IMG/VR virus record: IMGVR_UViG_3300046477_000165
Span: 1 to 31,450 of that record
Direction: 5' to 3' (one strand)
Source: a virus
DNA: 31,450 bases
Under the pieces are notes generated by a model that was not told the DNA's origin, made no database searches, and was given only the letters and a program-made list of their open reading frames with translations. Shown here one piece after another: positions 2,774 through 27,701 of the stretch. Each line of letters begins with the position of its first letter. The first letter of the stretch is position 1. A program made the position numbers and the translations under genes.

Positions 2774-2784
2774 AACGTGCTAAC
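2774..2784 (-). promoter_or_regulatory. GTTAGCACGTT boundary motif upstream of the adaptor gene
   Basis: On the minus strand the sequence reads GTTAGCACGTT, about 17 bases before the ATG at 2756. The same 11-mer occurs upstream of the capsid and portal genes in the same orientation. Function unknown. Confidence 0.45.
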
Positions 2785-2851
2785 AGTTTAGCAGTTGAAG
2801 CTCAGGCAACGAAGTGACTCCCGATGCTATGAAGGCGGGGGCTATTCGAGG

Positions 2852-5386
2852 TTAGGCACCAAGCAAGCCGTGCGTTTTCAAATCAACGATTAGCTGCGCA
2901 AGTTGCGCGGAGGTCTGCGCAAGCGTTGCCGACGCGCCATTGAAACTAGCGGTGCGACTGCTGCCCGTAGGCGTGCCGTATCCCGCGATCTGTGCGCCGA
3001 CAACCTGCGTCGAGCCAACGACTACCTTCGCCGTGTAGACACCCGTCCAATTCAGCGAACTTGTCCCGCTGCTATACGTTGCCGTCGTCGCCGGTGAATG
3101 ATTCGAGTAGACCAAACTGCCCGTGCTTGACAAGAACAGCAGGTTTGAGATTGCTCCAGTTCCGCTCGGCTTCGACGAAAGCGTGATGCCGCCCGACGTG
3201 CTCGCGCGAACGCGCGCAACCGTATCATTGCCCTCGAAGCTGAACCGAAGTTCCGAGTTGGCGTTCTTTCCGCCAATGATATTGGCGTAGCCGGTTGTCG
3301 CGTTCGTGTTAGCACCGCCAACAGTCAGCGTCGTACCGATGACTCCCGCGTTGTACGCCGTCAGGTTGTAGCCTTGCATCGCAAAATGGCTGTACACCTG
3401 ATTCTGGTTGACGCCTTGCGGGAAGTTCGCGCCCGGATCGCTGTAGCCAGTGACTTGCAGGGTCGCCGATTTCGTCGGACTCGCTACGACATAGCCGTAC
3501 GCCGGGCTGCCGTCCGTCGTGCAGTTCTGCTGGATGTACCGACCGCAGAACCCGAGTTTGATCTCATACGGCTCGCTGGTCTGGAATCGCGTGTTGATGA
3601 AGAACTGGCGATGGATGATTGCGCTTCCGCCAAGGCCATCAATCCACATTGCACCCGCGCAGGTGTCGTTCTGAGCGCCAAGCGCGCCGTTCGCCGTCGT
3701 GATCGCCTGCCCGGAATGATGCAGGTACGAGTAGACCACGCTATTGTCTGCAACGAAGTCGCTTGCCCCAAGCGAGTTTCGGCCATCGGAATACGTCCGA
3801 CCGCTTACTGAGTCGTAGAATGGCGCTGGGTCGCTGATAGCCGATGTACCGGTTGCGGCACCACCAGCAAGCGTCTGCACGGCAATGTTTGCACTCGTCA
3901 CGCTCATCGCCGTAATAGTGGCGACAGCGTTCGTCGAGTAGACTTGAAGCGCGGAACCGCTGGCCGTCAGCGTCAGCGCGTCATACGGAACAAGGCGGTT
4001 CGGTTGCGCTTGCCATTTCGCAATTAGGCTGGCGATGGTCGTCGGCACGTCATCGCCAATCTGTACCTCCGTACCCATGACCGGCGACGCTCGGAACGTG
4101 TACACCTCTGTTCCAATGGTAACGGTGTCGCCGTCAGCAGGGACGCCGCTAAATGCGAACTGCCCGGCCTGCGTGTAATTGAAGCCGAAGTGCATGAGTC
4201 CGGCTTTCGGAAGCGGCCCTAGATTGACTAGCCCCCAATACCCCTTCGTCAATACGCGGATCAACGACATTCCATCGGAACCAGCGCCCTGCGTCACCGG
4301 ATACCCGTTCAGTTCGGGCATGTTTTGAGCGCGCGTGGAATCGTTGTAAATTCCAGCGACGCGCCAATATCCGAGCACATTTACGTCGATCAGACGGCAA
4401 TCAAGCCGCGATCCGTGAAACACGCCGACATCCCAGTTATCACCGAGATTCGATGCCGCCGCGTTCGTGTAGTCGCAGTAAAGCTCGACCGTCAACTTCC
4501 GCAGCGTTACGCCGTTATTCTGGATGTTGACGGCAGTCGAAAGTGGCGCGTCGTTCGGGTCTCCGGCGCTTGCACGGTATAGCCTACGAGTCTTGACAGA
4601 CTTTGCGCCAGCGCCAACGAACAGAAGGCGCGTGCCCGGAATATTTGAGAGCGGCGCCCAATAGGATCGCGCATAGCCCTGATTCTCGCCGCAAAGTTCA
4701 ACCGCGCCGACATCGATCAGCAATTCATCCGCAAAAACATACGTTCCGACAGGAAACTTAACAGTCCCGCCGCCTGCGCGAGAGCGAACCGCTTGCTGAG
4801 TTGCCGCCCAATCGATGGATTGCGAAAGCGATGTAATTGGGACACTGGGATACTGCGCTTGGGCCGAAGCAATCGTCGCGAATCTCTCGCTAAGCGGATG
4901 CAGCGCGCCATCGCCAATCGCACCGAAGTCACGCACACTAACCGTATCCCCCAGCTTCGATACGATTGTCCGCGCTACTGCTCCCGTACCGCTCTGCGTG
5001 AAGCCCTGATACGTCTGGATGACCCACTGCGCGATCTTCGTGAGCGTCGTCTTCACGACGCCCGTCTGCCTGACGTTGATACTCTCCGTACCCGTCAACG
5101 CACCTGAGTCTGGATAGTCGCCGGCGAGGTCGTCGATGAGCAGGACGTCACTGATCGTCTGCTGCGCGATGCCCTTGCCCGTGATGGTGAGCGAGTAGTG
5201 CCCGTCCGCCGCGTAGAACGAGAACACACCGTTGGCGTCGGCCGTCAGGGTGTTGCTGGTCGGCGTGGTGCCGTTGTCGCTGTAGATCGTCGCAGGCCCC
5301 CCAGACGGGTAGTTGTACACCGTGACGGTCGCTTTCGCCACGGGAAGACCCAGGCTATTGATGACGTTGTTCTGGTATTTCTGCAT
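2852..5386 (-). CDS. Tailspike / receptor-binding protein with pectate-lyase-type beta-helix
   Basis: An 844-aa modular protein. Residues 1-90 form a carboxypeptidase-regulatory or Ig-like N-terminal domain (VAKATVTVYNYPSGGPATIY, ANGVFSFYAADGHYSLTI), the virion-attachment part. Residues 148-160 (TVSVRDFGAIGDG) are the usual entry motif of pectate-lyase-like beta-helix spikes. Residues about 412-515 (DGDTVTIGTEVYTF, VQIGDD, LTLTASGSALQV) look like a separate beta domain inserted into the helix. The last 50 residues (AQTSAQLAQLIVDLKTHGLLGA) resemble the C-terminal trimerising tail of phage fibres. It probably binds and perhaps cleaves host surface polysaccharide; catalytic residues cannot be assigned. 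No good Shine-Dalgarno sequence is seen before ATG 5386. Coding sequence for residues after about 120 has lower GC than its flanks. Confidence 0.85.
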   Translation of the reverse strand: MQKYQNNVINSLGLPVAKATVTVYNYPSGGPATIYSDNGTTPTSNTLTADANGVFSFYAADGHYSLTITGKGIAQQTISDVLLIDDLAGDYPDSGALTGTESINVRQTGVVKTTLTKIAQWVIQTYQGFTQSGTGAVARTIVSKLGDTVSVRDFGAIGDGALHPLSERFATIASAQAQYPSVPITSLSQSIDWAATQQAVRSRAGGGTVKFPVGTYVFADELLIDVGAVELCGENQGYARSYWAPLSNIPGTRLLFVGAGAKSVKTRRLYRASAGDPNDAPLSTAVNIQNNGVTLRKLTVELYCDYTNAAASNLGDNWDVGVFHGSRLDCRLIDVNVLGYWRVAGIYNDSTRAQNMPELNGYPVTQGAGSDGMSLIRVLTKGYWGLVNLGPLPKAGLMHFGFNYTQAGQFAFSGVPADGDTVTIGTEVYTFRASPVMGTEVQIGDDVPTTIASLIAKWQAQPNRLVPYDALTLTASGSALQVYSTNAVATITAMSVTSANIAVQTLAGGAATGTSAISDPAPFYDSVSGRTYSDGRNSLGASDFVADNSVVYSYLHHSGQAITTANGALGAQNDTCAGAMWIDGLGGSAIIHRQFFINTRFQTSEPYEIKLGFCGRYIQQNCTTDGSPAYGYVVASPTKSATLQVTGYSDPGANFPQGVNQNQVYSHFAMQGYNLTAYNAGVIGTTLTVGGANTNATTGYANIIGGKNANSELRFSFEGNDTVARVRASTSGGITLSSKPSGTGAISNLLFLSSTGSLVYSNHSPATTATYSSGTSSLNWTGVYTAKVVVGSTQVVGAQIAGYGTPTGSSRTASFNGASATLAQTSAQLAQLIVDLKTHGLLGA

Positions 5387-5405
5387 GGGGGCCGCTGAAT
5401 GTGGA

Positions 5406-5437
5406 AACGAGGGCGGGCTTGTGGCGCCGCCCTCGTT
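5406..5437 (-). terminator. Strong hairpin after the decoration-like gene
   Basis: AACGAGGGCGG (5406-5416) pairs perfectly with CCGCCCTCGTT (5427-5437) around a 10-nt loop. On the minus strand it lies directly after the stop at 5453 and is followed by TTTCC, so it may be a weak intrinsic terminator or attenuator ahead of the tailspike gene. Confidence 0.55.
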
Positions 5438-5452
5438 GTGCTGCGTCGAGGC

Positions 5453-5818: not shown

Positions 5819-5840
5819 CTCTACTCCTGTGCGTGAAGAA

Positions 5841-5858: not shown

Positions 5859-5865
5859 CGCCGAA

Positions 5866-6920: not shown

Positions 6921-6931
6921 AACGTGCTAAC
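6921..6931 (-). promoter_or_regulatory. GTTAGCACGTT boundary motif overlapping the scaffold stop codon
   Basis: The minus strand reads GTTAGCACGTTAGCC. The TAG inside the first GTTAG is the stop codon of the scaffold gene (6927-6929). The site lies about 50 bases upstream of the capsid start. Confidence 0.45.
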
Positions 6932-7862
6932 GCACTCGGCCTTCAGCTACGGCTGCCTGGAGATCTGCTTCCAAGCGAGCCGCCTCGTCGGTCGGAATGT
7001 GGCCGCGGCGGAGGTCCTCGTAGAACTGATTGATGGACGCGGTGTCCCAGATCAGCGTCTGCTTGGTCTCCGGCGGCGCACTCTGACGCGTGCGGGCGGG
7101 GGCGACCTGTCGCGCGAGATCGTTCTTCGGCGGTGTGGCCTGCTGCACCGGCGCCTTCGTGGCGAGGTAGGCGTTGAAGATGTTCGCGGTGCGCGCGACA
7201 TCCCGGCGATCCGCGGCGTTATCCAGCGCAACCTTGCGCGGCAAGCCGTAGATCGGGTCCACCTCACTCAGCCATGCGATGAACTCAGGGTCCTGGTTCG
7301 TCTGCACGAGGCTCGGTACTGCGCGCCCCAGATCAGCGTAGAAGGCAGCTTCGGCCTGCTCCGCGGTCTGTTGCGCCACACTGCCGACGTTCGCTTTCAC
7401 CTGGGCCAGTTCGGCTCGCAACCGCTCGTTCTCGGACTGCAGGGGGCTTGTCGCCTGCTGCACGCCGCGTTCGATGAGGTTGACGAGGTCCGGTCCAAAT
7501 GACTCGCGGTCCTGGTCAGTGATCAATTGCGTCGGGGCCTTGGGCGGTTCCTTGGGGGCTTGCAGCTGCGCGATCTGGTTCTGCATGGCCGTGAGCGACT
7601 CTCGAAGCTCTCGGTTCTGCGCGTTCAGGCGCGGTACTTCCGCGTCGAACATGCCCTTCAGCGTGCTGTACTTGTGCTCCCAATCGACCGGCTTATGCTC
7701 CGGCGCCGGGGTTACCGGCTGCTGTTCCGGGGGCGTCTGCGGGGCAGGCTCCTGGGGTTCATTGGGTGTAGGCTCCGAGTTACCGCTCGGGTCGCCGACC
7801 ATCTGTGCCGCCAAGGCGTCTGCTGCGTCTGCTGCTTCCTGAACTGCGCGTGGCAATCCCAT
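6927..7862 (-). CDS. Capsid scaffold-like protein
   Basis: A 311-aa protein. The N-terminal quarter is Pro/Glu/Gln-rich and disordered (PTPNEPQEPAPQTPPEQQ); residues about 62-110 and 135-185 are charged coiled-coil (AEVPRLNAQNRELRESLTAM, LQSENERLRAELAQVKANVG). The C-terminus has FYEDLRRGHIPTDEAARLEADLQAAVAEGR, matching the capsid-binding tail of phage scaffolds, where a 'FY-dl-rG' motif precedes a short amphipathic helix. GGGAG precedes ATG 7862. It lies immediately upstream of the capsid gene, the standard order. It would guide prohead assembly and then leave. Confidence 0.8.
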   Translation of the reverse strand: MGLPRAVQEAADAADALAAQMVGDPSGNSEPTPNEPQEPAPQTPPEQQPVTPAPEHKPVDWEHKYSTLKGMFDAEVPRLNAQNRELRESLTAMQNQIAQLQAPKEPPKAPTQLITDQDRESFGPDLVNLIERGVQQATSPLQSENERLRAELAQVKANVGSVAQQTAEQAEAAFYADLGRAVPSLVQTNQDPEFIAWLSEVDPIYGLPRKVALDNAADRRDVARTANIFNAYLATKAPVQQATPPKNDLARQVAPARTRQSAPPETKQTLIWDTASINQFYEDLRRGHIPTDEAARLEADLQAAVAEGRVR

Positions 7863-8423: not shown

Positions 8424-8434
8424 CACATGCTAAC
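8424..8434 (-). promoter_or_regulatory. GTTAGCATGTG boundary motif in the gap upstream of 8397
   Basis: On the minus strand GTTAGCATGTG precedes CCATATAGG and then the AAAGGAG ribosome binding site. It is the only intergenic gap between the portal-side genes and the small Gly-rich gene, and again the motif points with transcription. Confidence 0.4.
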
Positions 8435-8461
8435 AAACTGTGCGCTACTTGTTAACAGGTT

Positions 8462-10919: not shown

Positions 10920-10956
10920 ATTGTATCTGTCAACATATACCACACAACGTGCTAAC
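10920..10956 (-). promoter_or_regulatory. Possible promoter plus GTTAGCACGTT motif upstream of the portal
   Basis: Reading the minus strand, the GTTAGCACGTT motif (10946-10956) runs into TTGTGT (10942-10947), then 16 bases, then TACAAT (10920-10925), which resembles a sigma70 -35/-10 pair. Transcription would start only about eight bases before the portal ATG. The 60-bp gap between the terminase and portal genes is otherwise empty. The match to consensus is moderate. Confidence 0.35.
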
Positions 10957-10965: not shown

Positions 10966-12372
10966 TCAAGCCCACGTGTACCGGACCTTTTCGACTGGTC
11001 TCGCCTGTGTTCGAACCGAGCCGCCAAGCAGGTGGCCGCCCGCATGCAGACAGGCGTACTGGTGCCCGTCGAGCAAGTGCGAGTAGCTGTTCTTCTCCGG
11101 CTTATCGTCGCTCTCCCCGTTCTGCCGGATCTTGTACCGATACCCACCCGCGAGGCCGCGGATGAGGGTCTGGCAGGATGGGTCAATAAGGTGCGCCGGG
11201 CCGCCGTCGATCGTGCGTGTGAGCCACGAGTCCACGCCCGAGATCCGGGCGGCGATCGAGTTGGTCTTTGCCGAGATCACCCGGAAGCCTTCCGATTTCA
11301 GGATGTCGAACACCGACTTCTCGTCCGTCTGCGCGCGCTGCGTGCCCGCCGGGTCGCCGACCACCAGCACATTCAAGCCAGCAAACCGTTGGGTGGTTAA
11401 GAGAGGCTTGAGCTTCTCGCGGATGAAGCGCAGTTCGCCCATGCCTTCCGACGTGAGCTCAGCGAATGTGTTCAGCCGCCCGCGCGGGTCGACCTGATTT
11501 ATCGAGCAACTAGGGGTTAACCCGAAGTCGTGGCCAATAATGAGCGGGTACGTGCTCATGCGGATCGGCGTGAGTGGGCTCTTGGCTATGTGAATGCTGC
11601 GATCAAACGCAGGGAACACCGGCTTGCCTGACAGCGACGCGCCAAACTTGCCGTGGCAGTAAATGTCGACCCAGTTCTGCGGCTTCCCCTCTGAAAGGTT
11701 GATGTAATAATCATCTTTTAAATACTGGAGCCAATCGGCTTCTGGCGACATCCCAGACGGCTGGAAGAAGCACGCAGCGTTGGCCGGCGGACTTGTGAGG
11801 TACTCCTCCCACCACGTATCGAAGTCGGGCGGGTTCGACGCGCCCCAGAACTTGTCGATCTGGTTGCCGTAGTCGTCCTTGCACCCTACTCCATTGTCAG
11901 CCTTCGACGGGTAGCGTCCGAGACGCCCCTGGAGGGCCATGAACACCTCAGGGTTTAGCTCCCGGAACTCGTCCGCAATGCCGAATGTAGCCTGGAGAGA
12001 CAGTAGGCGCCGAACGTCGGCGGCGTCGTCGAGTCCTCGGAAGAGTACTTCGCACTCCACGTCGCCAAACTTGAGGGTGTACTTGTAGTTCGTTTTTTCG
12101 AACGTCCCGGCCAGGCCATCGGGATACCAGCGCAGGAAGTCGGGGATGGACGTGTCGCGCAGCTGCTCGCGAGACTGTCGGACCCAGATAGCGCGGCTGC
12201 GGCGTATCCCGTCCCGACAAGGGGCAATTCGAGCTGCTTCATGGGCGATCTTCAAGATCATCGCCGTGGTCTTGGTCGAGCCGACCGGTCCCATGACGAG
12301 GTTGATGAACTTGTCCGACGTGAAGTAGTCGAGCAAGCTGGGAGGTGGTGTGTAAGTTAGGCTGTTGCTCAT
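10966..12372 (-). CDS. terL: Terminase large subunit
   Basis: A 468-aa DNA-packaging motor. Walker A is GPVGSTKT (28-35); Walker B is FGIADEF (D134, catalytic E135). The C-terminal nuclease domain shows acidic residues in IIGHDFGL (D282), VLVVGDPAG (D340) and SHLLDGHQY (D435), the usual three-metal-site pattern of TerL RNase H-like nucleases. The protein would dock on the portal, hydrolyse ATP to translocate DNA and cut concatemers. Its ATG overlaps the stop of the small membrane protein at 12369. Length and both domains look intact. Confidence 0.92.
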   Translation of the reverse strand: MSNSLTYTPPPSLLDYFTSDKFINLVMGPVGSTKTTAMILKIAHEAARIAPCRDGIRRSRAIWVRQSREQLRDTSIPDFLRWYPDGLAGTFEKTNYKYTLKFGDVECEVLFRGLDDAADVRRLLSLQATFGIADEFRELNPEVFMALQGRLGRYPSKADNGVGCKDDYGNQIDKFWGASNPPDFDTWWEEYLTSPPANAACFFQPSGMSPEADWLQYLKDDYYINLSEGKPQNWVDIYCHGKFGASLSGKPVFPAFDRSIHIAKSPLTPIRMSTYPLIIGHDFGLTPSCSINQVDPRGRLNTFAELTSEGMGELRFIREKLKPLLTTQRFAGLNVLVVGDPAGTQRAQTDEKSVFDILKSEGFRVISAKTNSIAARISGVDSWLTRTIDGGPAHLIDPSCQTLIRGLAGGYRYKIRQNGESDDKPEKNSYSHLLDGHQYACLHAGGHLLGGSVRTQARPVEKVRYTWA

Positions 12373-12539
12373 CCGATGCTCTCATCCCACCAGGCGTCGT
12401 CTTCGTTGCGCTCACGTGCGTCGAGCTTCTCGAGCCAGCCGAACATCAGCGAGAGCGCGATGCCGGCCACGCAGGCGAGCACACCAAAAACGCCAGCGAC
12501 CCACGCGAAGATCACGCCAATCAGGTTCCAGTCGATCAT
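12369..12539 (-). CDS. Small membrane protein between the terminase genes (56 aa)
   Basis: A short ORF joined to both neighbours by four-base overlaps (12536-12539 and 12369-12372), strong evidence of translation. Residues 4-36 are a long hydrophobic segment (WNLIGVIFAWVAGVFGVLAC and beyond), followed by a charged tail (EKLDARERNEDDAWWDESIG). This predicts one membrane-spanning helix with an acidic C-terminus. A lysis-related or membrane-anchoring role is possible, but a holin normally sits elsewhere; no known family is recognised. Confidence 0.65.
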   Translation of the reverse strand: MIDWNLIGVIFAWVAGVFGVLACVAGIALSLMFGWLEKLDARERNEDDAWWDESIG

Positions 12540-13012
12540 TCCTTGTTCTCCACGATCTCGACGCGCTTCACAGCAGCTTCAGCGGCCGCGCGGTCCAGGT
12601 TGATGTTGATGCTGAATCTCGGGCCGGTGTCGCCACCTGTGCCCACCTTGTTCTTCGGCAGCAGGTCGCCGGTCTTCACCAGCGCCTCGTAGATGGCCAG
12701 CTTCTGCGCGGCCGAAGTGTCGGAGCTCGCGCCGATGCGGATGAGCTCGTCCTGGATCATCTCGGCGCCCAGGCGGGCCTTGGCGACCACCACCCACCCT
12801 TCGGCCTCGAGCTCCTTGCGCTTGCTCTCCACGGCCTTCTGGAAGCTCGGGGAGGCGACGAGGCGATCCCAGCGCGGGCCATCCCATCCGAAGCGTGACG
12901 CGATCTCCGCGGGGTCTTCGAGACCTTGGGCGATTGACATCACCATCTCGGGCGGGAAGTTCAGGTCCGTCTGCGCGAGGGGGTCGAAGAGGGTGATCTT
13001 GCCTTCGCTCAT
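12536..13012 (-). CDS. Putative terminase small subunit
   Basis: A 158-aa protein immediately upstream of the large terminase. The N-terminal half contains EDPAEIASRFGWDGPRWDRLVASPSFQKAVESKRKELEAEGW, which reads as a helix-turn-helix followed by the 'f---v-----el' helix common in small terminases; the middle is helical (KARLGAEMIQDELIRIGAS, AAQKLAIYEALVKTGDLL). It would recognise the packaging site and regulate TerL. Identification rests on position and helical pattern; a profile comparison would be needed for certainty. Confidence 0.65.
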   Translation of the reverse strand: MSEGKITLFDPLAQTDLNFPPEMVMSIAQGLEDPAEIASRFGWDGPRWDRLVASPSFQKAVESKRKELEAEGWVVVAKARLGAEMIQDELIRIGASSDTSAAQKLAIYEALVKTGDLLPKNKVGTGGDTGPRFSININLDRAAAEAAVKRVEIVENKE

Positions 13013-13245
13013 GCCGAGAACAGATCCGGTGCAATGAGCTCGTAGGCTGCCTCGAACACGGAGCCATCCACCACGGCCGTGCCGTCAAGGACGTAGTCGC
13101 CCAGCTTCGTGCTGGCGGGGACGAGCGCGTCGAACCCGTTATCGAGGGTAGCGTGGCGCTCCTCGGGGTTGGCCAGCTTGCCGAGGTCCACGACCTTGTG
13201 AGCGGTGATCTCGAGGGTGTTGCGTGCGCGGTGGGTGGAGGTCAT
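13009..13245 (-). CDS. Small unknown protein of the terminase operon (78 aa)
   Basis: ATG 13245 overlaps the stop of the upstream gene, so it is preferred over a longer in-frame extension that would lie in that gene. The protein contains NTLEITAHKVVDLGKLANPEERHATLDNGFDALVPAS and ends with a helical FEAAYELIAPDLFSA. No domain is recognised. It is one of three small genes at the head of the leftward operon, where regulatory or host-interaction proteins are often found. Confidence 0.6.
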   Translation of the reverse strand: MTSTHRARNTLEITAHKVVDLGKLANPEERHATLDNGFDALVPASTKLGDYVLDGTAVVDGSVFEAAYELIAPDLFSA

Positions 13246-13469
13246 TGGAGGGTGTGTCCGTTGGATGAGCCGACTCGGTTTTCCAGCTGGTCGGCGAGTA
13301 GGCGGAGTGATTCGGCGCATGCCTTGCGCTGCTCCTCGTCCGCGAAGCCACCGAACCCCTTAAGGCTCGCGTCGTCCTCGGTGACGTAAAACACCGCCGT
13401 GTAGAGGATGTCGTCACCCTCAATATCGCCGAGGAACTCCTCGATGCGATCGGTCTGCTCTGGGGTCAT
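13242..13469 (-). CDS. Small unknown acidic protein (75 aa)
   Basis: The protein begins MTPEQTDRIEEFLGDIEGDDILYTAVFYVTED and continues with a helical EEQRKACAESLRLLADQLENRV. The layout is alpha-beta-beta-alpha with an acidic surface. It overlaps both neighbours by four bases. No homologue is recognised by eye; a role as a partner of the adjacent ribbon-helix-helix protein is conceivable but unsupported. Confidence 0.6.
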   Translation of the reverse strand: MTPEQTDRIEEFLGDIEGDDILYTAVFYVTEDDASLKGFGGFADEEQRKACAESLRLLADQLENRVGSSNGHTLQ

Positions 13470-13612
13470 TGACGCTCCAGGTATTCCTGCAGTGCGCGGC
13501 GGACATGCTCGGCTACCGGCGTGCCCTTCGTGGCTGCGTGCTTCTTGATGGCCTCCACCAACGGCTTCGGGAGGAAGTAGTTGCAGCGTTGCATCGGCTC
13601 GTTGCGGATCAT
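13466..13612 (-). CDS. Ribbon-helix-helix DNA-binding protein (48 aa), first gene of the leftward operon
   Basis: A short protein from ATG 13612: a basic beta strand (MQRCNYFLPKPLVEAIKKHA) followed by two helices (AIKKHAATKG, PVAEHVRRALQEYLERQ). This is the layout of Arc/CopG-type repressors, where a strand pairs in a dimer and reads the major groove. TAGGA lies five bases before the start. As the first gene of the virion operon, behind two leader hairpins, it is a good candidate for an autoregulator of late transcription. DNA-binding is inferred from fold pattern; the target is not known. Confidence 0.7.
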   Translation of the reverse strand: MIRNEPMQRCNYFLPKPLVEAIKKHAATKGTPVAEHVRRALQEYLERQ

Positions 13613-13630
13613 GTGTTCCTAGTGTCTGGG

Positions 13631-13692
13631 TGGCCCCGTTACGTGGGGCCAGGCGGATTTGGGCTCGTCCCGACGATTAAGCTGCCGAGCCC
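13631..13692 (-). promoter_or_regulatory. Two consecutive hairpins in the leader of the leftward operon
   Basis: GGGCTCG (13661-13667) pairs with CGAGCCC (13686-13692), and TGGCCCC (13631-13637) pairs with GGGGCCA (13645-13651) over a 7-nt loop. Read leftward, both precede the ribosome binding site of the ribbon-helix-helix gene. They may act as an attenuator, an mRNA-stabilising leader or a terminator for upstream transcripts; no T-run follows either stem. Confidence 0.45.
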
Positions 13693-13894
13693 GCTTACAG
13701 CCGCATGAAGTGCCACGGGTTAGCAGCCCGCAGCGCGCATCGTCAGTAACGCCTTTCAAGAACCCATGTTAGCTAGACCGGCGTCGTTTGTGAATACCTT
13801 ATGAGTAGAAAGTGTGTATAACCGACAAAATGGGCCTTGCTCTCTACGGGATACGTAAAGGGGGTGGCCCCCCCAAGGGCACTGGGTCCAGCTA

Positions 13895-13914
13895 GGGGGT
13901 GGGTGGCGGGGGGG
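13895..13914 (+). other. G-rich run able to form a G-quadruplex
   Basis: The plus strand has G5, T, G3, TGGC, G7, which meets the usual rule of four runs of at least three Gs with short loops. It lies 20 bases after a GGGGG/CCCCC hairpin (13860-13872). No coding function is likely here. Confidence 0.4.
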
Positions 13915-14314
13915 TGTAGAGGGCAGGGTTAAAGCGGAAACCATGTATGTAGGGCAGCAGTACACACGGTGAGCAGGGAGCTAAAGCCCACACCGTGTTA
14001 GCAGGTAGCAGCAAGCGGCAACTCCCGAAGCCGCGAAGGTAGCAAGAGGGACGGTGGAACGTATCTACCATGGTGGGCGCACGCCCAAAGTGGACTAGAC
14101 CCGGAAAGCCGATCGGACCCGACACCGGCCACGCTTTGACGTGGACGTGCAAAACGGGATGGATGACCGGCCGTGTAGGTCGGTGGCGAGAATAACTCGG
14201 ACAGCGTGAGCCCACTTAGGGCGCGTGACGTTCGACGGCGACTCGGGAGGGCGAAACTAACTGACTACGCGCCGACCCTCAAACGACCCTGTCTGACTAA
14301 GCGCGGGGGGTCGT

Positions 14315-14358
14315 AGCTAACTTGGTTAGCTGCAAGCTGCTTATCGTTAGGCAGCTTG
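14315..14358 (+). promoter_or_regulatory. Operator-like palindrome and hairpin before the first rightward gene
   Basis: AGCTAAC-TTG-GTTAGCT (14315-14331) is a perfect 7-bp inverted repeat built from the same GTTAGC core that recurs elsewhere. Directly after it, CAAGCTGC (14333-14340) pairs with GCAGCTTG (14351-14358). Together they occupy the space where an early promoter would be expected, 35-78 bases before ATG 14393. A repressor or activator site is plausible. Confidence 0.45.
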
Positions 14359-15092: not shown

Positions 15093-15281
15093 CGTTGTGT
15101 ATCTTGTTGTTGAGAGTCATTCTCATCCCGCACTAAACTTGATCGTGTTAGCAGGTGGCGAAAGATCCACGCTACCTTCGCTCGCAGGTTTTTGTGTGGC
15201 TTACCGGTTTCTGAATTTGATTCGCTACATATTGAACTCCATGTGCGAGTCATTCAGCCATACTGGATAAGGCTCTCGTTC

Positions 15282-15533: not shown

Positions 15534-15594
15534 CAGCTAGAATGCGGTGAGCAAGTTCAGCAGGATAAGTTAGCAACCAGTGCGGAGGTTAAAT

Positions 15595-15759
15595 ATGCAG
15601 GTGAAGTCTTGGGCTGGCGGCGTGGCTCGCATGGGCGCACCCGACAATGCCCGTTCGATCGAGCGCACCATCGGCCCGAAGAACGTGGCACATGTCATTT
15701 GGCGTGGCGGCGTGCGCTACATGGTGCTGGCCAACGGCAAGTTGCGCATCGTTGCGTAG
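15595..15759 (+). CDS. Small basic protein (54 aa)
   Basis: MQVKSWAGGVARMGAPDNARSIERTIGPKNVAHVIWRGGVRYMVLANGKLRIVA. GCGGAGG is six bases upstream of the ATG, a strong ribosome binding site. The protein is basic with short predicted beta strands (HVIWRGGVRYMVL, KLRIVA) and could bind nucleic acid, but no family is recognised. It contains the first CACATGTCAT copy, read there as codons for A-H-V-I. It is the first gene after the repeat-rich region. Confidence 0.6.
   Translation: MQVKSWAGGVARMGAPDNARSIERTIGPKNVAHVIWRGGVRYMVLANGKLRIVA
15689..15698 (+). repeat. CACATGTCAT copy 1
   Basis: Within the 54-aa gene; context GGCACATGTCATTTGG. Confidence 0.6.
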
Positions 15760-15819: not shown

Positions 15820-16281
15820 ATGGCCCGCATAGTCAACAAGAACGTCCACAACTTCTTCATCCCCCGCGAGTGGGTGCTCGACATCAAGGCGAAGCTCGGC
15901 GCACCGAACATTAACCCAGCCATCGATGCGGAGTTTGTTTCCCGCGTGGGCAAGGACGTCGCCACGTACATGGCGGACTGGAAGCTGGCGAATCCGCATG
16001 GCTCGAAGTCGGCCGAGTTCAAGCGCCTGCTCATCGAGTGGTTCGATCCCCCTGCTCCACGCAAACACGAGGCAGCCGGGTCGGACTACGAGACGATCAC
16101 CTCCTCGTACCAGCGCACACTCAAGAAGCGTCTGGAGCTCGCAGCCGAGGGTGTTGGTGTTACCATCCACGAGCTCCAACGCCGCTGCGTGATCGAGTTC
16201 CTCGACAGCATGGGTGGCGAGGCAGCAGTACGGATCGGCGCGCACCAGCGCGAGGTAGCGAAGCGCACGAAGGGAGCGTAG
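15820..16281 (+). CDS. Unknown soluble protein (153 aa)
   Basis: Begins MARIVNKNVHNFFIPREWVLDIKAKL, with predicted mixed alpha/beta structure, a central helix FKRLLIEWFDPP, and a C-terminal helical part (YQRTLKKRLELAAEGVGVTIHELQRRCVIEFLDSMGG). The segment GVTIHELQRRCVIEFLDSM resembles a helix-turn-helix or ribbon-helix-helix end, so DNA binding is possible. GGAGG lies five bases upstream of the ATG. It follows a gap holding GCTAACAACTTGTG. Function is not determined. Confidence 0.7.
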   Translation: MARIVNKNVHNFFIPREWVLDIKAKLGAPNINPAIDAEFVSRVGKDVATYMADWKLANPHGSKSAEFKRLLIEWFDPPAPRKHEAAGSDYETITSSYQRTLKKRLELAAEGVGVTIHELQRRCVIEFLDSMGGEAAVRIGAHQREVAKRTKGA

Positions 16282-16835: not shown

Positions 16836-17318
16836 ATGATCAAGCGTATCTACATCCACGCCGGCCACGACGCCGCGCAATGCAAGTGCACCTTCGCCCA
16901 GCGCATGGTTGGCGATGGCTGCGACGTCTGCAACCCGGAACTGGCCGAGGAGTTGGCTGAGCCCACCGAAGCCGACATGCTCTGCGCCGAGCTCGAAGAC
17001 ACGCAGCGCGTGGCGCACTACCAGCGCGAGACGATCGCCGCCCACCTGAGCACGATCGACAGCCAGCGCAAGATCATCGCCAACCTGTGCGAGCAGCTGA
17101 CCGCCGCGCGCAACGCCGCGTCAATGGCCGAGGAGCAGAAGCGCGACCTGCAAGGCCGCATCCTGGGGTACGACGCGGACATGGCTGGCATGGTGAAGTC
17201 GGCGGCTGCGTGGGATGAGAAGCTCAAAGCCCAAGCCGAGAAGATCGCCAGCCAGCGCGATGTGATCAACCAGCTGAGCGATCGCCTCGTCAAGGTCGAA
17301 CGCGCGCTCCGTTCCTAG
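16836..17318 (+). CDS. Coiled-coil protein with N-terminal Cys cluster (160 aa)
   Basis: The N-terminus has C16-x-C18 and C29-x2-C32 with histidines at 8 and 11, a layout able to bind one zinc ion. From about residue 45 to the end it is a long charged coiled coil (SQRKIIANLCEQLTAARN, LKAQAEKIASQRDVINQLSD). ATG 16836 is preferred because the alternative upstream ATG lies in the CACATGTCAT repeat with no ribosome binding site. A scaffold or nucleic-acid-binding adaptor is plausible. It ends in TAG that overlaps a GTTAGCA motif. No named family recognised. Confidence 0.7.
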   Translation: MIKRIYIHAGHDAAQCKCTFAQRMVGDGCDVCNPELAEELAEPTEADMLCAELEDTQRVAHYQRETIAAHLSTIDSQRKIIANLCEQLTAARNAASMAEEQKRDLQGRILGYDADMAGMVKSAAAWDEKLKAQAEKIASQRDVINQLSDRLVKVERALRS

Positions 17319-17331
17319 TTAGCAAGTTGTG
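17318..17331 (+). promoter_or_regulatory. GTTAGCAAGTTGTG motif between coiled-coil and MGYRSD-type genes
   Basis: GTTAGCAAGTTGTG is shared base for base with the site at 18262-18275. It begins on the last base of the upstream TAG stop and runs into the GAGGAGG ribosome binding site of the next gene. Confidence 0.5.
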
Positions 17332-17342: not shown

Positions 17343-17807
17343 ATGGGATACAGAAGCGACGTGGCCTACATGATCCGTGGGCCCAAGGACACGATGCTGG
17401 CCGTGCTCGCGCACTACCGGCTGACCGTGCCGCATGCGGAGCTGGCGCTCGACGAGGTGGTGATCTCCGAAGGCATACATGGCGCGAACGATGAAGCGGA
17501 CCTCACGATTGGGTTGAAGACACACGGCAAGTGGTACGACGATTACGAGGATGTGAAATGCCATGAAAATCTGTGGCGCCTCTTCCTCGAAGCGCAGGAA
17601 GCAGCCGAAGCCGACAGCGACGCGATCCATATTGACGGCCGCTTCATCCGAATCGGAGAGAACACGGACGACATTGAGGTGCGCACATTCGGCAACGACT
17701 CGTGGAACCTGTGGGAGGAGCTCGACGTGAGCGTGAGCCTCAACGTGGACACCGATGCGTTCAATGATGCCCGAGACATCCACAAGGAGGCAGAGCAGAA
17801 TGCCTAA
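17343..17807 (+). CDS. MGYRSD-family phage protein of unknown function (154 aa)
   Basis: The start MGYRSDVAYMIRGPKDTMLAVLAHYRL is typical of a widespread phage hypothetical family that nearly always begins MGYRSDV. Later segments are beta-rich and acidic (HIDGRFIRIGENTDDIEVRTFGND, WNLWEELDVSVSLN). GAGGAGG lies five bases before the ATG, a strong site. Family identity by the N-terminal signature is fairly safe; the family itself has no assigned role known to me. It overlaps the next gene by eight bases. Confidence 0.75.
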   Translation: MGYRSDVAYMIRGPKDTMLAVLAHYRLTVPHAELALDEVVISEGIHGANDEADLTIGLKTHGKWYDDYEDVKCHENLWRLFLEAQEAAEADSDAIHIDGRFIRIGENTDDIEVRTFGNDSWNLWEELDVSVSLNVDTDAFNDARDIHKEAEQNA

Positions 17808-18141
17808 AGTCGACCGCGCAGCCACGTGGATACTGGAACACCTGCGCACCAACGGACCGTCCACGAAGGTAGCGATGCGGGCCGAGGCCCCGGATGACGT
17901 CGCCGCCTCTGTTGGCCCGCGCCTGTCCGCCCTCGCCTCACTGGGCAAGCTGGACACCCGCACCATCGGCGAGAAGCTAGGTAAGCCGGTGCTGGAGTAT
18001 CGCCTAGCCGGGAGCACGCAGCGCACGACGTCCACGTCGTTCCGCTCCCATGAGATCCTCGACGCGTTCCTCGCGGCCGCGCGCCGGCAGCTGGGCGTCG
18101 AGGAGAGTTACCTCGACCGCCTTAAACGGGAGGCTGTATGA
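17800..18141 (+). CDS. Winged-helix-like DNA-binding protein (113 aa)
   Basis: MPKVDRAATWILEHLRTNGP begins a winged-helix pattern: helix 1 (AATWILEHLRT), helix 2 (TKVAMRAE), recognition helix (VAASVGPRLSALASLGKL) and a wing (LDTRTIGEKLGKPVLEYRLA). A C-terminal helix (SHEILDAFLAAARRQLGVEESYLDRL) could dimerise. AAGGAGG precedes ATG 17800. It may be the transcription factor for this early region, possibly acting at one of the repeated motifs; that link is only a guess. Confidence 0.65.
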   Translation: MPKVDRAATWILEHLRTNGPSTKVAMRAEAPDDVAASVGPRLSALASLGKLDTRTIGEKLGKPVLEYRLAGSTQRTTSTSFRSHEILDAFLAAARRQLGVEESYLDRLKREAV

Positions 18142-18266
18142 ATTCACATGTCATGCCGCTGGATGCGCTGTACGCCGCGTTCACCGGATTCTTTCTGGCC
18201 CTGTTTCTCTTCGTGATGTGGGATTTGCACCACATTATGGTCCTCATCGACCTCTGGTTAAGTTAG
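18138..18266 (+). CDS. Small membrane protein (42 aa)
   Basis: The ATG overlaps the stop of the winged-helix gene. MNSHVMPLDALYAAF leads into a hydrophobic span (FTGFFLALFLFVMWDL) and a second shorter hydrophobic end. One membrane helix is likely. The first codons contain a CACATGTCAT copy and the TAG stop lies inside a GTTAGCA motif, so both ends of this gene are made of the recurring motifs. Confidence 0.5.
   Translation: MNSHVMPLDALYAAFTGFFLALFLFVMWDLHHIMVLIDLWLS
18145..18154 (+). repeat. CACATGTCAT copy 3
   Basis: Codons 3-6 of the 42-aa membrane protein; context TTCACATGTCATGCCGC, so nine bases after the core agree with copy 2 up to GCCGC. Confidence 0.6.
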
Positions 18267-18275
18267 CAAGTTGTG
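18262..18275 (+). promoter_or_regulatory. GTTAGCAAGTTGTG motif followed by GTGTGTAT
   Basis: Identical 14-mer to 17318-17331, here running on into GTGTGTATGATG, which resembles a -10 box (TATGAT). The next gene starts at 18308. A promoter is possible but no good -35 box is visible. Confidence 0.45.
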
Positions 18276-18677: not shown

Positions 18678-19015
18678 CGTTTCTCAGGCAGCGCACGCTG
18701 ACGCGGCGCCGGGCAGACAAGAAGTTCGAAGCACGATGGGGAGATCCTGTGCGATTCACACCGACGCCGTGGAGCGGCAAAGAGTGGGCGATCTACGACA
18801 GCGAGAAGCGCGGCAACGTAGCGTTCGGCACGAAAGGTTTCTGTATGCAGAAGGCGAGGCATCTGAACGATGAGCATGCACGAGCAGTCTTTGATAGCCC
18901 GTGGGTTTCAGGGGTTAGCACCGAATCACTGGAAGCTGATCACGCTGGACAGCAGGCAGATAAACCTCGGGCTGCCGGGCTACGACCGTGTGCCCTACTG
19001 GGCGGCGCTGCTTAG
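18674..19015 (+). CDS. Small basic protein with a doubtful C-terminal half (113 aa as read)
   Basis: GTG 18674 overlaps the previous stop and has GAGG upstream. The first 75 residues look real (RRRADKKFEARWGDPVRFTP, WSGKEWAIYDSEKRGNVAFG), while the rest (VSTESLEADHAGQQADKPRAAG) uses codons with poor G/C at third positions and lies entirely inside the next gene in another frame. Either the gene truly overlaps by 146 bases, or a frameshift has altered its end. Function unknown. Confidence 0.5.
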   Translation: MTFLRQRTLTRRRADKKFEARWGDPVRFTPTPWSGKEWAIYDSEKRGNVAFGTKGFCMQKARHLNDEHARAVFDSPWVSGVSTESLEADHAGQQADKPRAAGLRPCALLGGAA

Positions 19016-19103
19016 CCAAGCGCACCACATCAACTGCCCGGCTGACCAGATCGAGTACATCGAAGAGCAGCTGGCCATCGTAGTGGCAAGGAGGATGGAG
19101 TGA
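18870..19103 (+). CDS. Small unknown protein (77 aa)
   Basis: MSMHEQSLIARGFQGLAPNHWKLITLDSRQ continues with LGLPGYDRVPYWAALLSQAH and a C-terminal helix (DQIEYIEEQLAIVVARRME). Codon use from about 18930 onward favours this frame over the overlapping one. No strong ribosome binding site precedes the ATG, so start choice is uncertain (18870 or 18876). Its final codons contain AAGGAGG, which serves the next gene's GTG start. Confidence 0.6.
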   Translation: MSMHEQSLIARGFQGLAPNHWKLITLDSRQINLGLPGYDRVPYWAALLSQAHHINCPADQIEYIEEQLAIVVARRME

Positions 19104-19393
19104 GTATGTCCCCATTCGACATTGAGCTCGACGCGACCACGCAGGATATGGTCGAGAACTTCGGCTACGTCGTGGCCGCCATGAAGGAGCGAGGTATCGC
19201 CTTCGATCCGGAGAATGACTTCCAAGCGCTCTGGTATCTGGCGCATGAGGTTCGCAACATGTGGGACAACAGCGGAAGATCGCTCATAACCACGCTCGAC
19301 GAACTGCTCGACCTCAAGCTGGTCAGCGCGAGGCTGGCCGGGTACGACGACCTGATGTGGTGGATCAACGAAGAAGTTTTCGGCAATAAGTAG
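19100..19393 (+). CDS. Unknown acidic helical protein (97 aa)
   Basis: GTG 19100 has AAGGAGG five bases upstream; ATG 19106 is an alternative. The protein is mostly helical and acidic: IELDATTQDMVENFGYVVAAMKERG, NDFQALWYLAHEVRNMWDNSG, ITTLDELLDLKLVSARLAGYDDLMWWINEEVF. No family recognised. Its TAG stop is followed directly by a GTTAGCA motif. It is the last gene before the ATPase, with 76 bp between them. Confidence 0.65.
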   Translation: MSMSPFDIELDATTQDMVENFGYVVAAMKERGIAFDPENDFQALWYLAHEVRNMWDNSGRSLITTLDELLDLKLVSARLAGYDDLMWWINEEVFGNK

Positions 19394-19418
19394 TTAGCAG
19401 ATAACGCAGTACACGTAG

Positions 19419-19428
19419 CACATGTCAT
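19419..19428 (+). repeat. CACATGTCAT copy 4
   Basis: Intergenic, 42 bases before the MoxR-type ATPase ATG; context AGCACATGTCATGCAGC. Confidence 0.6.
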
Positions 19429-19469
19429 GCAGCAAACCACCAACCACTGATTAACTTATAGGATCAGAC

Positions 19470-21276: not shown

Positions 21277-22188
21277 ATGGACATGACTCTCCCCCCGAAC
21301 ATTGACATCAAGGCCACGCAGTTGAATGAGAAGGCGATGCTCGTCAAGCTGACGATGCGCCGCGCTCACATGTCATCGCGCGATCAGGCTGCCGAGGAGA
21401 TCGTGCAGAACCAGCTGAACGACGCGTCGCTGGTGGTCAACCGCAAGCTGTTCCGGGACAAAGCGAACCCGGTGAACCGGATTCTGACGGCCGCGAGCGA
21501 GGTGTACACAGCGCACAAGAAGATGACGCTGCCGTACATGGACGCCGGCCCGCGCATCCTGGCAAACGGGATGTACATGGAGTACACGAAGGCGATGAAG
21601 GAGCGCATCGCGCACCTCGAAGGGATGATCGAGCAGACGCTGGCCAGCTGGGACCAGCACGTGGCGGCCGACATCTCGTTTCGCAGCCGGTCATCCAGTG
21701 GCGGGAGGGCAACAGTCGAGGACTACCCCACCGCTGAGCAATTCAGGGAGCGCGTGGGATTCGACCTGCGCTTCTCCCCCCTGCCGGACGAGAGCCACTT
21801 CCTGTTCGACCTGTCGGAGGAAGACAAGGCGGGCTTCGCTTCGTCGATGAAGGAGATCGCCGCCGGCGCGCGCCGCGATTGCATCATGCGGATGTTAGCA
21901 CCTGTTGACCACTTGATTAGTAAGTTGCGCTTGCCCATTGGCGAAACTGGGAGTATCTTTCGTGACTCCGCGATCACCAACGTGGTCGAAGGGTGCGAGA
22001 TCGCCCGCAAACTCAACATCGACGACGACCCCCAGATCACGGCGGTGATCGGAGAGTTGAACCGCGCGATCGCCAAGATCAACGATGCGAAGGATGCAGT
22101 GCGCGAGTCGCAGCCCACGCGCGAGGCCGCCGCCAAGAAGCTGGCGGAACTGCAGGCGAAGCTGGCGCCGTTTATGGGGATGGCATGA
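21277..22188 (+). CDS. Helical protein, possible DUF3150-like partner of the ATPase (303 aa)
   Basis: ATG 21277 has GAGG six bases upstream and is preferred to a start inside the previous gene. The protein is mainly helical. Recognisable stretches are FRDKANPVNRILTAASEVYTAHKKMTLPYMDAGPRILANGMYMEYTKAMKERIAHLE, then YPTAEQFRERVGFDLRFSPLP, and a coiled-coil C-terminus (ELNRAIAKINDAKDAVRES). The 'Gp-l-p---y--y--am' and 'yps---fr----f---f-p-p' pattern resembles DUF3150-type proteins encoded between MoxR ATPases and VWA proteins. That match is from memory. It contains one CACATGTCAT and one GTTAGCA in its coding sequence. Confidence 0.7.
   Translation: MDMTLPPNIDIKATQLNEKAMLVKLTMRRAHMSSRDQAAEEIVQNQLNDASLVVNRKLFRDKANPVNRILTAASEVYTAHKKMTLPYMDAGPRILANGMYMEYTKAMKERIAHLEGMIEQTLASWDQHVAADISFRSRSSSGGRATVEDYPTAEQFRERVGFDLRFSPLPDESHFLFDLSEEDKAGFASSMKEIAAGARRDCIMRMLAPVDHLISKLRLPIGETGSIFRDSAITNVVEGCEIARKLNIDDDPQITAVIGELNRAIAKINDAKDAVRESQPTREAAAKKLAELQAKLAPFMGMA
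21367..21376 (+). repeat. CACATGTCAT copy 5
   Basis: Near the 5' end of the 303-aa helical gene; context CTCACATGTCATCGCG. Confidence 0.6.
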
Positions 22189-25163: not shown

Positions 25164-25393
25164 TCGAGTGGCATAGGGATATCAGCCGCGATGGATGGTT
25201 CGGCGCGGTGCCAGGTCACAACGCGGCGGTCATCATCTGGCGCGAGGTGGCGCACCCACACCGCATCACCATGATCAACATCTGGGACGGTGGTGGGCGC
25301 TGGATTGGAGACACAGTCGAAGAAGCCAAGCGGGCCGCAGTCGCACAACTTGTCTTATGGAGGATGGAACATGGGCATCAAAAGAAGCCCTGA
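25160..25393 (+). CDS. Small tandem protein (77 aa)
   Basis: MIEWHRDISRDGWFGAVPGHNAAVIIWREV, then ITMINIWDGGGRWIGD and TVEEAKRAAVAQLVLWRMEHG. Start overlaps the previous stop; the RM codons again carry GGAGGATG used by the next gene. The Trp-rich strands plus EEAK helix are the shared layout. Its C-terminus has extra residues (HGHQKKP) beyond the family end. Confidence 0.65.
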   Translation: MIEWHRDISRDGWFGAVPGHNAAVIIWREVAHPHRITMINIWDGGGRWIGDTVEEAKRAAVAQLVLWRMEHGHQKKP

Positions 25394-25577
25394 AGTCGGC
25401 GTGCAGGTGGTCGAAGTCACGCAGCAGGCCGGGCGGCCGAAGTACCGCGTGAACATCACGCTCGACCGCATGCAGTGGAAGTCGGTCGAAGTCGACGAAG
25501 CGTTGTCTGTTGGCGACGCCATCGCGTTAGCAGTTGTCGAATTGAAGTTAGCAGGTGTATCCTTGCAACCCAACTGA
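25371..25577 (+). CDS. Small unknown protein (68 aa)
   Basis: ATG 25371 has GGAGG seven bases upstream, within the previous gene (23-base overlap). MGIKRSPEVGVQVVEVTQQA, then KYRVNITLDRMQWKSVEVDEALSVGDAIALAVVELKLAGVSL. It is a beta hairpin followed by a helix. Two GTTAGCA motifs lie in its 3' end. It differs in sequence from the four preceding tandem genes. Function unknown. Confidence 0.6.
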   Translation: MGIKRSPEVGVQVVEVTQQAGRPKYRVNITLDRMQWKSVEVDEALSVGDAIALAVVELKLAGVSLQPN

Positions 25578-25585
25578 GGCACAGC

Positions 25586-26915: not shown

Positions 26916-26973
26916 CACCGACATCCGCGAGACCTTCAAGAAGCACGACCGCCTCAACAACCGCAGCAAATAA
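26842..26973 (+). CDS. Small basic protein overlapping the acidic-tail gene (43 aa)
   Basis: MTPMKTTMPSLPITNPKFRY begins a 43-aa ORF that ends TPSHSTDIRETFKKHDRLNNRSK. The pattern 'n-kF-YtPs--TDir-tF-k' resembles a set of tiny phage proteins I have seen with this motif; no function is known to me. GAGG lies six bases before the ATG. It overlaps the previous gene's acidic tail by 74 bases in a different frame, which may explain the odd composition of that tail. Confidence 0.55.
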   Translation: MTPMKTTMPSLPITNPKFRYTPSHSTDIRETFKKHDRLNNRSK

Positions 26974-27001
26974 CTCACCAACCAACAAGGAACTTACTGA
27001 C

Positions 27002-27337
27002 ATGAACGTTCAAGAAGTTGCAGCAGCCAAGGCCCTGATGATCCTGAAAGCCGCCGGCGCCCGGTTCCACATCAAGATGTCCGATGGCATCGAGTATGGC
27101 GAGCCGATCGTAGAAGGCAAGCCGCGCAAGAAGGTCGGGCCGAGCATCCTGCACCACTATCAGGAGCCGATCGAGAGGATGGAGGTGGGCGATGTGGTCC
27201 AACTCGCCTACCCCGCTGATATAGACCGCGTGCGATTCAAGACGAACGCGCAGTCCTACGCCCGTAACAAATTCGGCCCCGACTCGTGCGTCGTGGGCAA
27301 GACCGACACTCATGTGGAGATTCTCCGTGTCCAATGA
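27002..27337 (+). CDS. Unknown protein (111 aa)
   Basis: MNVQEVAAAKALMILKAAGARFHIKMSDGIEYGEPIVEGKPRKKVGPSILHHYQEPIERM, then a strand-rich VVQLAYPADIDRVRFKTNAQSYARNKFGPDSCVVGKTDTHVEILRVQ. The last part reads as a small alpha/beta domain with a possible DNA-binding character. A modest AAGGAAC site lies upstream, after ACCAACCAACAAGG. Function unknown. Confidence 0.65.
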   Translation: MNVQEVAAAKALMILKAAGARFHIKMSDGIEYGEPIVEGKPRKKVGPSILHHYQEPIERMEVGDVVQLAYPADIDRVRFKTNAQSYARNKFGPDSCVVGKTDTHVEILRVQ

Positions 27338-27515
27338 AGAAACGAAACGTCTCGCGCGCGTCGAGTCGCGCCTTTGCCAACTGATGCTCCACATGGGGCT
27401 TGATCCGAATGAGAGAGTCTACGATGCGCCCTTCGAAAGCGGGTCCCCTCAACATCCCGCAGACGGTCACCCGTATGCACCGCGCCATGGCGCACCGGGA
27501 TGCCGTCGAGCCTGA
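27327..27515 (+). CDS. Small helical protein with overrunning tail (62 aa)
   Basis: GTG 27327 has GGAG about seven bases upstream; ATG 27312 is an alternative. MSNEETKRLARVESRLCQLMLHMGLDPNERVY looks real (a charged helix), but the end DGHPYAPRHGAPGCRRA lies in the next gene's frame-shifted sequence and looks less natural. Either it overlaps the next gene by 92 bases or its true end has been lost. Function unknown. Confidence 0.45.
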   Translation: MSNEETKRLARVESRLCQLMLHMGLDPNERVYDAPFESGSPQHPADGHPYAPRHGAPGCRRA

Positions 27516-27672
27516 GAGCGAGGCACATGTCATGCTCCAGGCGGCGATCGACACCATCCGCTCGGTGCTGATCATCTACCTCGGGCACGGCGTGGAGCCG
27601 CGTATCCAGTCGCGCCACATGGAAGGCGTCGAGCACTTCAATAAGGTGCTCACGTCCTTGGACATCAACTAG
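27424..27672 (+). CDS. Small helical protein (82 aa)
   Basis: MRPSKAGPLNIPQTVTRMHRAMAHRDAVEP is followed by a helical core, EAHVMLQAAIDTIRSVLIIYLGHGVEPRIQ, and FNKVLTSLDIN. GAGAG lies upstream of ATG 27424; ATG 27409 is an alternative. It contains a CACATGTCAT copy, read as codons for A-H-V-M. No family recognised. A hairpin follows its stop. Confidence 0.6.
   Translation: MRPSKAGPLNIPQTVTRMHRAMAHRDAVEPESEAHVMLQAAIDTIRSVLIIYLGHGVEPRIQSRHMEGVEHFNKVLTSLDIN
27524..27533 (+). repeat. CACATGTCAT copy 7
   Basis: Inside the 82-aa helical gene; context GGCACATGTCATGCTCC. Confidence 0.6.
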
Positions 27673-27679
27673 ATCGAGG

Positions 27680-27701
27680 CGCCCACGTTAGCACGTGGGC
27701 G
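27680..27701 (+). other. Perfect hairpin with GTTAGC across its loop
   Basis: CGCCCACGT (27680-27688) pairs with ACGTGGGCG (27693-27701) around the loop TAGC. The recurring GTTAGCA motif spans the loop. No T-run follows, so it is not a classical terminator; it could be an mRNA-processing or protein-binding site between genes. Confidence 0.5.

Follow-up and report, generated by a model that had tools for sequence, protein, structure and literature searches.

GTTAGCA in a phage fragment and its relatives

The sequence analysed here is a 31,450-nt viral fragment from IMG/VR (IMGVR_UViG_3300046477_000165, positions 1 to 31,450), referred to below, at its full length, as the window. It carries a leftward virion operon and a rightward early operon on either side of a divergent region at ~13.6-14.4 kb, and a short asymmetric element, GTTAGCA, recurs in both. 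Counting both strands, the window holds 18 copies of GTTAGCA, compared with 1.85 ± 1.42 expected from dinucleotide shuffles of the window; none of 100 shuffles reached 18. An earlier note on this DNA had listed 17 copies and two extended forms, and all 17 coordinates proved exact and both forms correct.

No close match to the window was present in the phage collection that we searched. Three near-complete relatives of ~62 kb (G001, G002 and G003, hereafter G1, G2 and G3) carry portal proteins that are 100% (G1 and G2) or 91% (G3) identical to that of the window, and the window DNA polymerase and terminase mark it as kin of Kochitakasuvirus KPP25/R18, Pseudomonas phage Rollin and Rhizobium phage RHph_TM3_14A (TM3_14A). 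GTTAGCA occurs 26 times in G1 and 28 times in each of G2 and G3, and is also in excess in G14, G16, G17 and G18, whose portals are 73-75% identical; among outgroups, KPP25 has no copy, and Rollin and TM3_14A have one each. We rejected the idea that the element characterises all of the portal family, since the ~64% portal group (G5-G10), KPP25, R18 and Rollin show no enrichment. Searches for further members of the clade with ParA or with a 153-aa early protein (see below) returned just G1-G3 again and one distant ParA. A portal search for the host among genome contigs gave a sole match, a distant portal (39%) on a gammaproteobacterial scaffold.

Many sites have a direct-repeat partner 22 bp away

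A feature overlooked in the earlier note is that the sites tend to be bipartite. At 12 of the 18 window sites, a degenerate second copy lies in direct repeat 21-23 bp to either side (null mean 1.0, maximum 4). Among 64 non-redundant sites, 13 are followed exactly 22 bp downstream by a GTTAGCA-like heptamer in direct orientation, against a mean of 0.9 at other offsets. In a scan for degenerate pairs that did not demand an exact GTTAGCA copy, pairs at exactly 22 bp numbered 10 in the window, 13 in G1, 11 in G2 and 10 in G3, compared with means at other spacings of 1.4, 2.6, 2.9 and 2.2, respectively; no such excess was found in the outgroups tested (G5, G7, KPP25 and RH). A trailing nGTT is common to both halves, giving a half-site of approximately GTTAGCAnGTT. 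Because the two halves are direct repeats separated by two helical turns, they point to one protein species on one DNA face rather than RNA structure; a direct repeat cannot form a hairpin. The sites and associated elements in the window are as follows.

2778-2784, minus strand: boundary site GTTAGCAcgtt, separated by 21 nt from the start of 2037-2756; GTAAGTA at 2756-2762 is a degenerate partner
3308-3314, plus strand: opposed GTTAGCA within gene 2852-5386, with no partner; probably a chance occurrence
6925-6931, minus strand: GTTAGCAcgtt before the capsid gene; its internal TAG is the stop of 6927-7862; conserved in G3
8428-8434, minus strand: GTTAGCA with upstream direct partner GTTAACA and TATAGG 9 nt downstream; conserved in G3
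8450-8456, minus strand: partner half-site GTTAACA, 22 bp upstream of 8428
10928-10934, minus strand: partner half-site GTTGACA, 22 bp downstream of 10950
10934-10939, minus strand: TATATG, extended -10-like (TGgTATATG), between the half-sites
10950-10956, minus strand: GTTAGCAcgtt ahead of the portal gene; G3, G16, G17 and G18 share this architecture
13719-13725, plus strand: GTTAGCA within the divergent region between the operons; GTCAGTA at +23 is a weak partner
13997-14003, plus strand: GTTAGCA, also within the divergent region; kept in G1 and G2
14315-14331, no strand assigned: inverted pair AGCTAAC-TTG-GTTAGCT, shortly before the first rightward gene
15147-15153, plus strand: GTTAGCA boundary site
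15569-15575, plus strand: GTTAGCA, 19 nt before the start at 15595; partner GTGAGCA at 15547-15553 (-22)
17318-17324, plus strand: GTTAGCAAGTTGTG, overlapping the stop of 16836-17318, 18 nt before the start at 17343
18262-18268, plus strand: GTTAGCAAGTTGTG; its internal TAG is the stop of 18138-18266; TATGAT 9 nt downstream; conserved in G3
18914-18920, plus strand: GTTAGCA within 18870-19103; partner GATAGCC at -21
19393-19399, plus strand: GTTAGCA overlapping the stop of 19106-19393; partner CGTAGCA at +21
21894-21900, plus strand: GTTAGCA within gene 21277-22188; partner ATTAGTA at +22
25526-25553, plus strand: perfect tandem GTTAGCA/GTTAGCA with a spacing of 21 bp (copies at 25526 and 25547), in the 3′ end of 25371-25577 and shortly before gene 25586
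27687-27693, plus strand: boundary site GTTAGCAcgt; partner GTGAGCC at 27709-27715 (+22)
30317-30323, minus strand: opposed GTTAGCA within the DNA polymerase gene; partner GTTAGCT at 30294-30300 (23 bp)

Sites concentrate at gene boundaries and tend to follow transcription

In the window, 12 of the 18 copies are at gene boundaries and six are within genes, with non-coding sequence making up 14.5% of the total (p = 7e-7). Boundary enrichment is equally clear in G1 (p = 4e-10) and G3 (p = 8e-10). Sites mostly end 1-54 nt 5′ of a start codon, in one case only 1 nt from it (G1 56751), and often overlap the preceding stop codon.

Minus-strand sites lie in the leftward virion operon and plus-strand sites mostly in the rightward early operon. 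Fourteen window copies are co-oriented with transcription, two are opposed and two (13719 and 13997) have no defined direction. The previous tally of 15 co-oriented and two opposed copies was thus right about the opposed ones; it had missed the co-oriented copy at 18914 and had assigned a direction to the two sites that lack one. Across relatives, non-redundant boundary sites are co-oriented in 29 cases and opposed in 9 (p = 0.0017), whereas coding sites show no significant bias (12 co-oriented, 9 opposed). Genes in the related contigs were called with a simple script that got some strands wrong in short contigs, producing a few false 'opposed' sites; for this reason the 29:9 ratio is conservative. 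The comparison with relatives therefore bears out the bias at boundaries, where it is weaker than in the window, and not within genes. We conclude that the orientation bias is real, belongs to gene boundaries and is not absolute; with this restriction to boundaries, the claim of a transcription-oriented signal common to early and late units holds. One opposed boundary site is found again and again, in four contigs (G1 60452, G3 38560, G18 7583 and G16 14064), at a gene boundary that appears to be the same in each.

Two further results single out the element. A stranded motif search of intergenic sequence, as proposed in the earlier note, returned GTTAGCA as the most over-represented oriented 7-mer in the window, G1, G2 and G3. 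At orthologous boundaries that could be aligned between G1 and G3, GTTAGCA was kept in 7 of 7 cases, compared with 25% for all boundary 7-mers (p = 6e-5). Separately, a second conserved element, CAGTACACGTARCACATGTCAT, lies at 19414-19440, after the site at 19393 and ahead of an AAA ATPase gene; it is also found in G1, G2 and G3, slightly diverged in the last.

Relation to promoters and RNA elements

The portal gene provides the clearest link to a promoter. In lineages with portals 73-91% identical to that of the window, the order upstream of this gene is half-site, TGnTATA, half-site, with the TATA element between the half-sites in the window, G3, G16 and G18. A -10 element placed between two half-sites has the geometry of an operator. 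More generally, TAT[AG] peaks 15-18 nt downstream of GTTAGCA, at 9 of 43 boundary sites, a position between the two half-sites like that in an operator. However, no -10 box at a fixed distance from GTTAGCA was found in the window clade, and a search around the early sites for a recurrent sigma-70 -35/-10 pair with 16-18 bp spacing gave five promoter-like matches, compared with 2.4 by chance. Sites that end 1-54 nt before a start codon, or supply the upstream stop codon, cannot be the -35 or -41 boxes of the next gene. We therefore rejected both a general promoter box, given the lack of a fixed -10 and the proximity to start codons, and classical sigma-70 promoters, given the near-chance matches. 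The suggestion that the motif is part of a promoter survives for the minority of sites with a TATA-like element, and fails for the many that are too close to a start codon.

We also looked for other explanations at this level. A promoter for a phage RNA polymerase seems unlikely, as no such polymerase was found among the largest G1 proteins scanned, which include a 2308-aa DarB-like protein and a 988-aa primase. An Rfam-type RNA element was set aside because no Rfam family matched at the sites.

A plasmid cassette in the complete relatives

G1, G2 and G3 each carry, between the primase gene and a 7-kb DarB-like gene, a cassette encoding ParA, a ribbon-helix-helix (RHH) protein of ParG layout and a plasmid Rep. 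The Rep matches RepL in G2 (4e-30) and, more weakly, in G3; that of G1 is a different winged helix. The cassette ParA has relatives in phages KS14, D6 and phiSG1, which persist as plasmids. The ParA-RHH pair is present in the complete motif-bearing genomes and absent from the other portal-family members tested (G4-G11), and distant portal relatives sit on ~60-kb plasmids, including E. coli pSTEC648_2, which has a similar gene order. From this gene content, members of the clade are likely to be maintained as plasmids. Across the wider family, a link between a multi-copy motif and Par genes is suggestive only. The regions upstream of parA in G1, G2 and G3 contain CGTATATACG-type repeats and zero copies of GTTAGCA.

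The rep gene itself differs among these close relatives (G1 44987-45610, G2 37569-38036, G3 54213-54680) while ParA and the RHH protein are kept, an apparent swapping of replication modules.

Candidate binding proteins

Three small proteins encoded in the window, and present in motif-bearing genomes, are candidates for the protein that binds GTTAGCA:

13466-13612, minus strand: 48-aa Arc/CopG-like RHH protein, encoded at the head of the leftward operon (its first gene); a candidate for the regulator
15820-16281, plus strand: early protein of 153 aa, specific to the clade (G3 homologue 72% identical); candidate binder
17800-18141, plus strand: 113-aa protein, winged-helix-like in layout according to a low-confidence model; a weak candidate

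The beta strand of the 48-aa protein differs from that in relatives that lack the motif. No G3 homologue of the 113-aa protein was found. Structure predictions for two candidate regulators had mean predicted local distance difference test (pLDDT) scores of 54 and 47 with no significant Foldseek match, too weak to single out a binder, and a search of solved structures returned nothing informative. Among the proteins scanned with Pfam, PHROGs and NCBIfam, which cover part of the genes, there was no immunity repressor with a helix-turn-helix and a Stoperator domain. Two proteins of the plasmid cassette were considered and set aside as binders of GTTAGCA: the partition RHH protein, because the regions upstream of parA lack the motif and have other repeats, and Rep, an unlikely binder because G1 and G2 share GTTAGCA sites and have unrelated Rep proteins.

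Proposed function and comparison with known systems

On balance, and by a narrow measure, we favour the view that the sites are operator/stoperator-like sites for a phage repressor in a Gram-negative podophage-plasmid. One phage-encoded protein would recognise GTTAGCAnGTT, in most cases as a direct repeat of two half-sites spaced by 22 bp. Bound at promoters, it would block initiation, as an operator-bound repressor does; bound in short gene gaps, in the orientation of transcription, it would most likely hinder elongating RNA polymerase in the manner of a stoperator. The outcome would be that the lytic genes stay silent while the phage persists as a plasmid through its ParA/RHH/Rep cassette, whose promoter is free of the motif. 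The repressor role of the protein, the elongation block and the temperate lifestyle are all inferred. The stronger case is that for blocked initiation, at 10950 and similar sites; an elongation roadblock at promoter-less sites is proposed from location, orientation and the analogy with mycobacteriophage L5.

L5 and its Cluster A relatives have 20-30 asymmetric sites per genome that follow the direction of transcription and lie in short gaps between genes, a minority of them at promoters, and the group includes extrachromosomal members that are parABS plasmids (PMC9283540, PMC6550527). The copy numbers of 26, 28 and 28 in G1, G2 and G3 fall in this range of ~20-30 per genome, and the sites of the window clade are likewise in gene gaps (p < 1e-6) and mostly co-oriented (29:9). 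The portal site, with its extended -10 between the half-sites, is at a predicted promoter, and most sites have no -10 at any fixed offset. The L5 site, however, is one 13-bp sequence, to which a two-domain repressor binds as a monomer (PMC9283540, PMC6550527), whereas the half-site here is 11 bp long and has a direct-repeat partner at 22 bp. The phage here is a podophage whose host is probably Gram-negative, and the proteins scanned included no homologous repressor.

A second comparison is with phages T1, TLS and Stevie, which have 16-21 oriented intergenic repeats of 21-22 nt, ATAGCACnnnTTGnTAAAA, that have been likened to stoperators and whose function was stated to be unknown (PMC11447400, PMC4319613). 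In T1 and TLS, 28 of 34 copies proved to have a -10-like hexamer at one constant distance, +38, and 17 of these have an extended TG. This distance places the repeat at about -41, and the T1/TLS repeats are, from their sequence, likely to be class II activator-box promoters. They resemble the window motif in their many co-oriented intergenic copies and their TAGCA core, and differ in having the fixed -10, in place of which the window motif has a 22-bp direct repeat.

Related phages and plasmids have dispersed motifs of their own. TM3_14A (60.9 kb) has 54 copies of GTTACCT, on both strands and genome-wide, many of them a few nt before start codons and mostly inside 18-bp palindromes, GTTACCT-N4-AGGTAAC. 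The similar half-site (GTTAnCn) and the position before start codons are shared with the window; however, the TM3_14A site is symmetric and inverted rather than tandem and oriented, and ParA/ParB were not detected. E. coli pSTEC648_2, a 60.5-kb phage-like plasmid and kin of the window, contains the palindrome TAATATTA at 12 places, several of which overlap the ATG of the next gene. Multi-copy boundary motifs that differ by lineage are thus a recurring feature of the wider family, with none found in KPP25 or R18 at the sensitivity used.

Several observations weigh against a repressor. Its gene was not found among the proteins scanned. Roughly one boundary site in four is opposed, and a number of sites are within genes. 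The window itself lacks the ParA cassette, which lies outside the fragment, and TM3_14A combines a dispersed palindromic motif with no detectable ParA/ParB. Finally, T1 and TLS, the closest Gram-negative parallel, are lytic phages in which the placement of the -10 looks activator-type.

In the literature that we found, proven stoperator silencing is confined to Cluster A mycobacteriophages. It is a tentative possibility that the window clade represents an independent case, in which one protein, acting in an orientation-dependent manner at 20-30 tandem sites at gene boundaries, would keep the lytic operons off and spare the plasmid cassette; the lineage-specific site sequences, including the palindromes of TM3_14A and pSTEC648_2, might then be immunity specificities. 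If so, this would be a second such system, independent of the first and with its bipartite site already defined, making roadblock silencing testable in ordinary Gram-negative hosts, and a hint at how phage-plasmids keep a whole lytic genome quiet. For T1-like phages, the oriented intergenic repeats are an admitted open question (PMC11447400), to which the fixed -10 at +38 offers a testable answer.

Alternative explanations

The main rival is an activator box, in which a phage activator bound to tandem half-sites would recruit host RNA polymerase to middle or late promoters. We give it this place because direct repeats of ~21 bp are typical of AraC/XylS activators and because of the T1 repeats. 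AraC/XylS-type proteins bind two direct half-sites with a ~21-bp period on one DNA face, which matches the 21-22-bp period seen here; AraC sites, however, do not form a genome-wide set of 20-30 copies, and no AraC-family protein was found among the proteins scanned. The downstream TAT[AG] peak and the extended -10 at the portal site are also as expected of an activator, as is the T1/TLS element with its shared core and extended -10. Nevertheless, the -10 offset is not fixed in the window clade, at many sites only 1-30 nt separate the end of the motif from the start codon, leaving no space for a promoter, leader and ribosome site, and the second half-site overlaps the expected transcription start. 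We therefore regard an activator as doubtful.

An RNA-level signal, as the earlier note had suggested, would have GUUAGCA bound by a protein in mRNA, or steering processing or translation at gene boundaries. Co-orientation with transcription, overlap with stop codons and a position just ahead of ribosome sites are all consistent with this. The direct-repeat partner at exactly two DNA helical turns, which precludes a hairpin, the opposed boundary site that recurs in four contigs, the TATA element between half-sites at the portal promoter and the lack of an Rfam family argue against it, and we consider it improbable.

Equally improbable, in our judgement, is that the sites form a distributed centromere or organise the nucleoid, with the partition RHH protein or some other DNA-packaging protein as the binder. 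Some RHH proteins, such as omega of pSM19035, recognise asymmetric heptads of 7 bp, and the ParA-RHH pair accompanies the motif in complete genomes while being absent from G4-G11. A plasmid relative, Photobacterium p2_510, moreover has arrays of the heptad TAGTCTA before parA and at a few other promoters, which look like the regulon of an RHH partition protein, by analogy. However, the repeats upstream of parA in G1-G3 are of a different type, and a centromere needs neither a bias to gene boundaries nor one orientation.

A replication or recombination signal oriented with the fork (a primase, Chi-like or packaging site) is the least probable explanation: most sites do switch strand with the operons at the divergent region, but GC skew is not reversed there, the orientation bias vanishes within genes and the sites cluster at gene boundaries.

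Other observations

Photobacterium p2_510 also has oriented copies of TCGAAACGACAT in gene gaps. The early operon of G3 encodes a small protein resembling the pyocin activator PrtN (56219-56473; G1 40680-40934), and homologues of the G1 type are present in G5-G8 and G10. The DNA polymerase is 913 aa in G1 (11510-14251) and 624 aa in the window; the G1 protein is split by an endonuclease-like segment (residues ~439-720) with no counterpart in the window, which suggests an intein or homing insertion.

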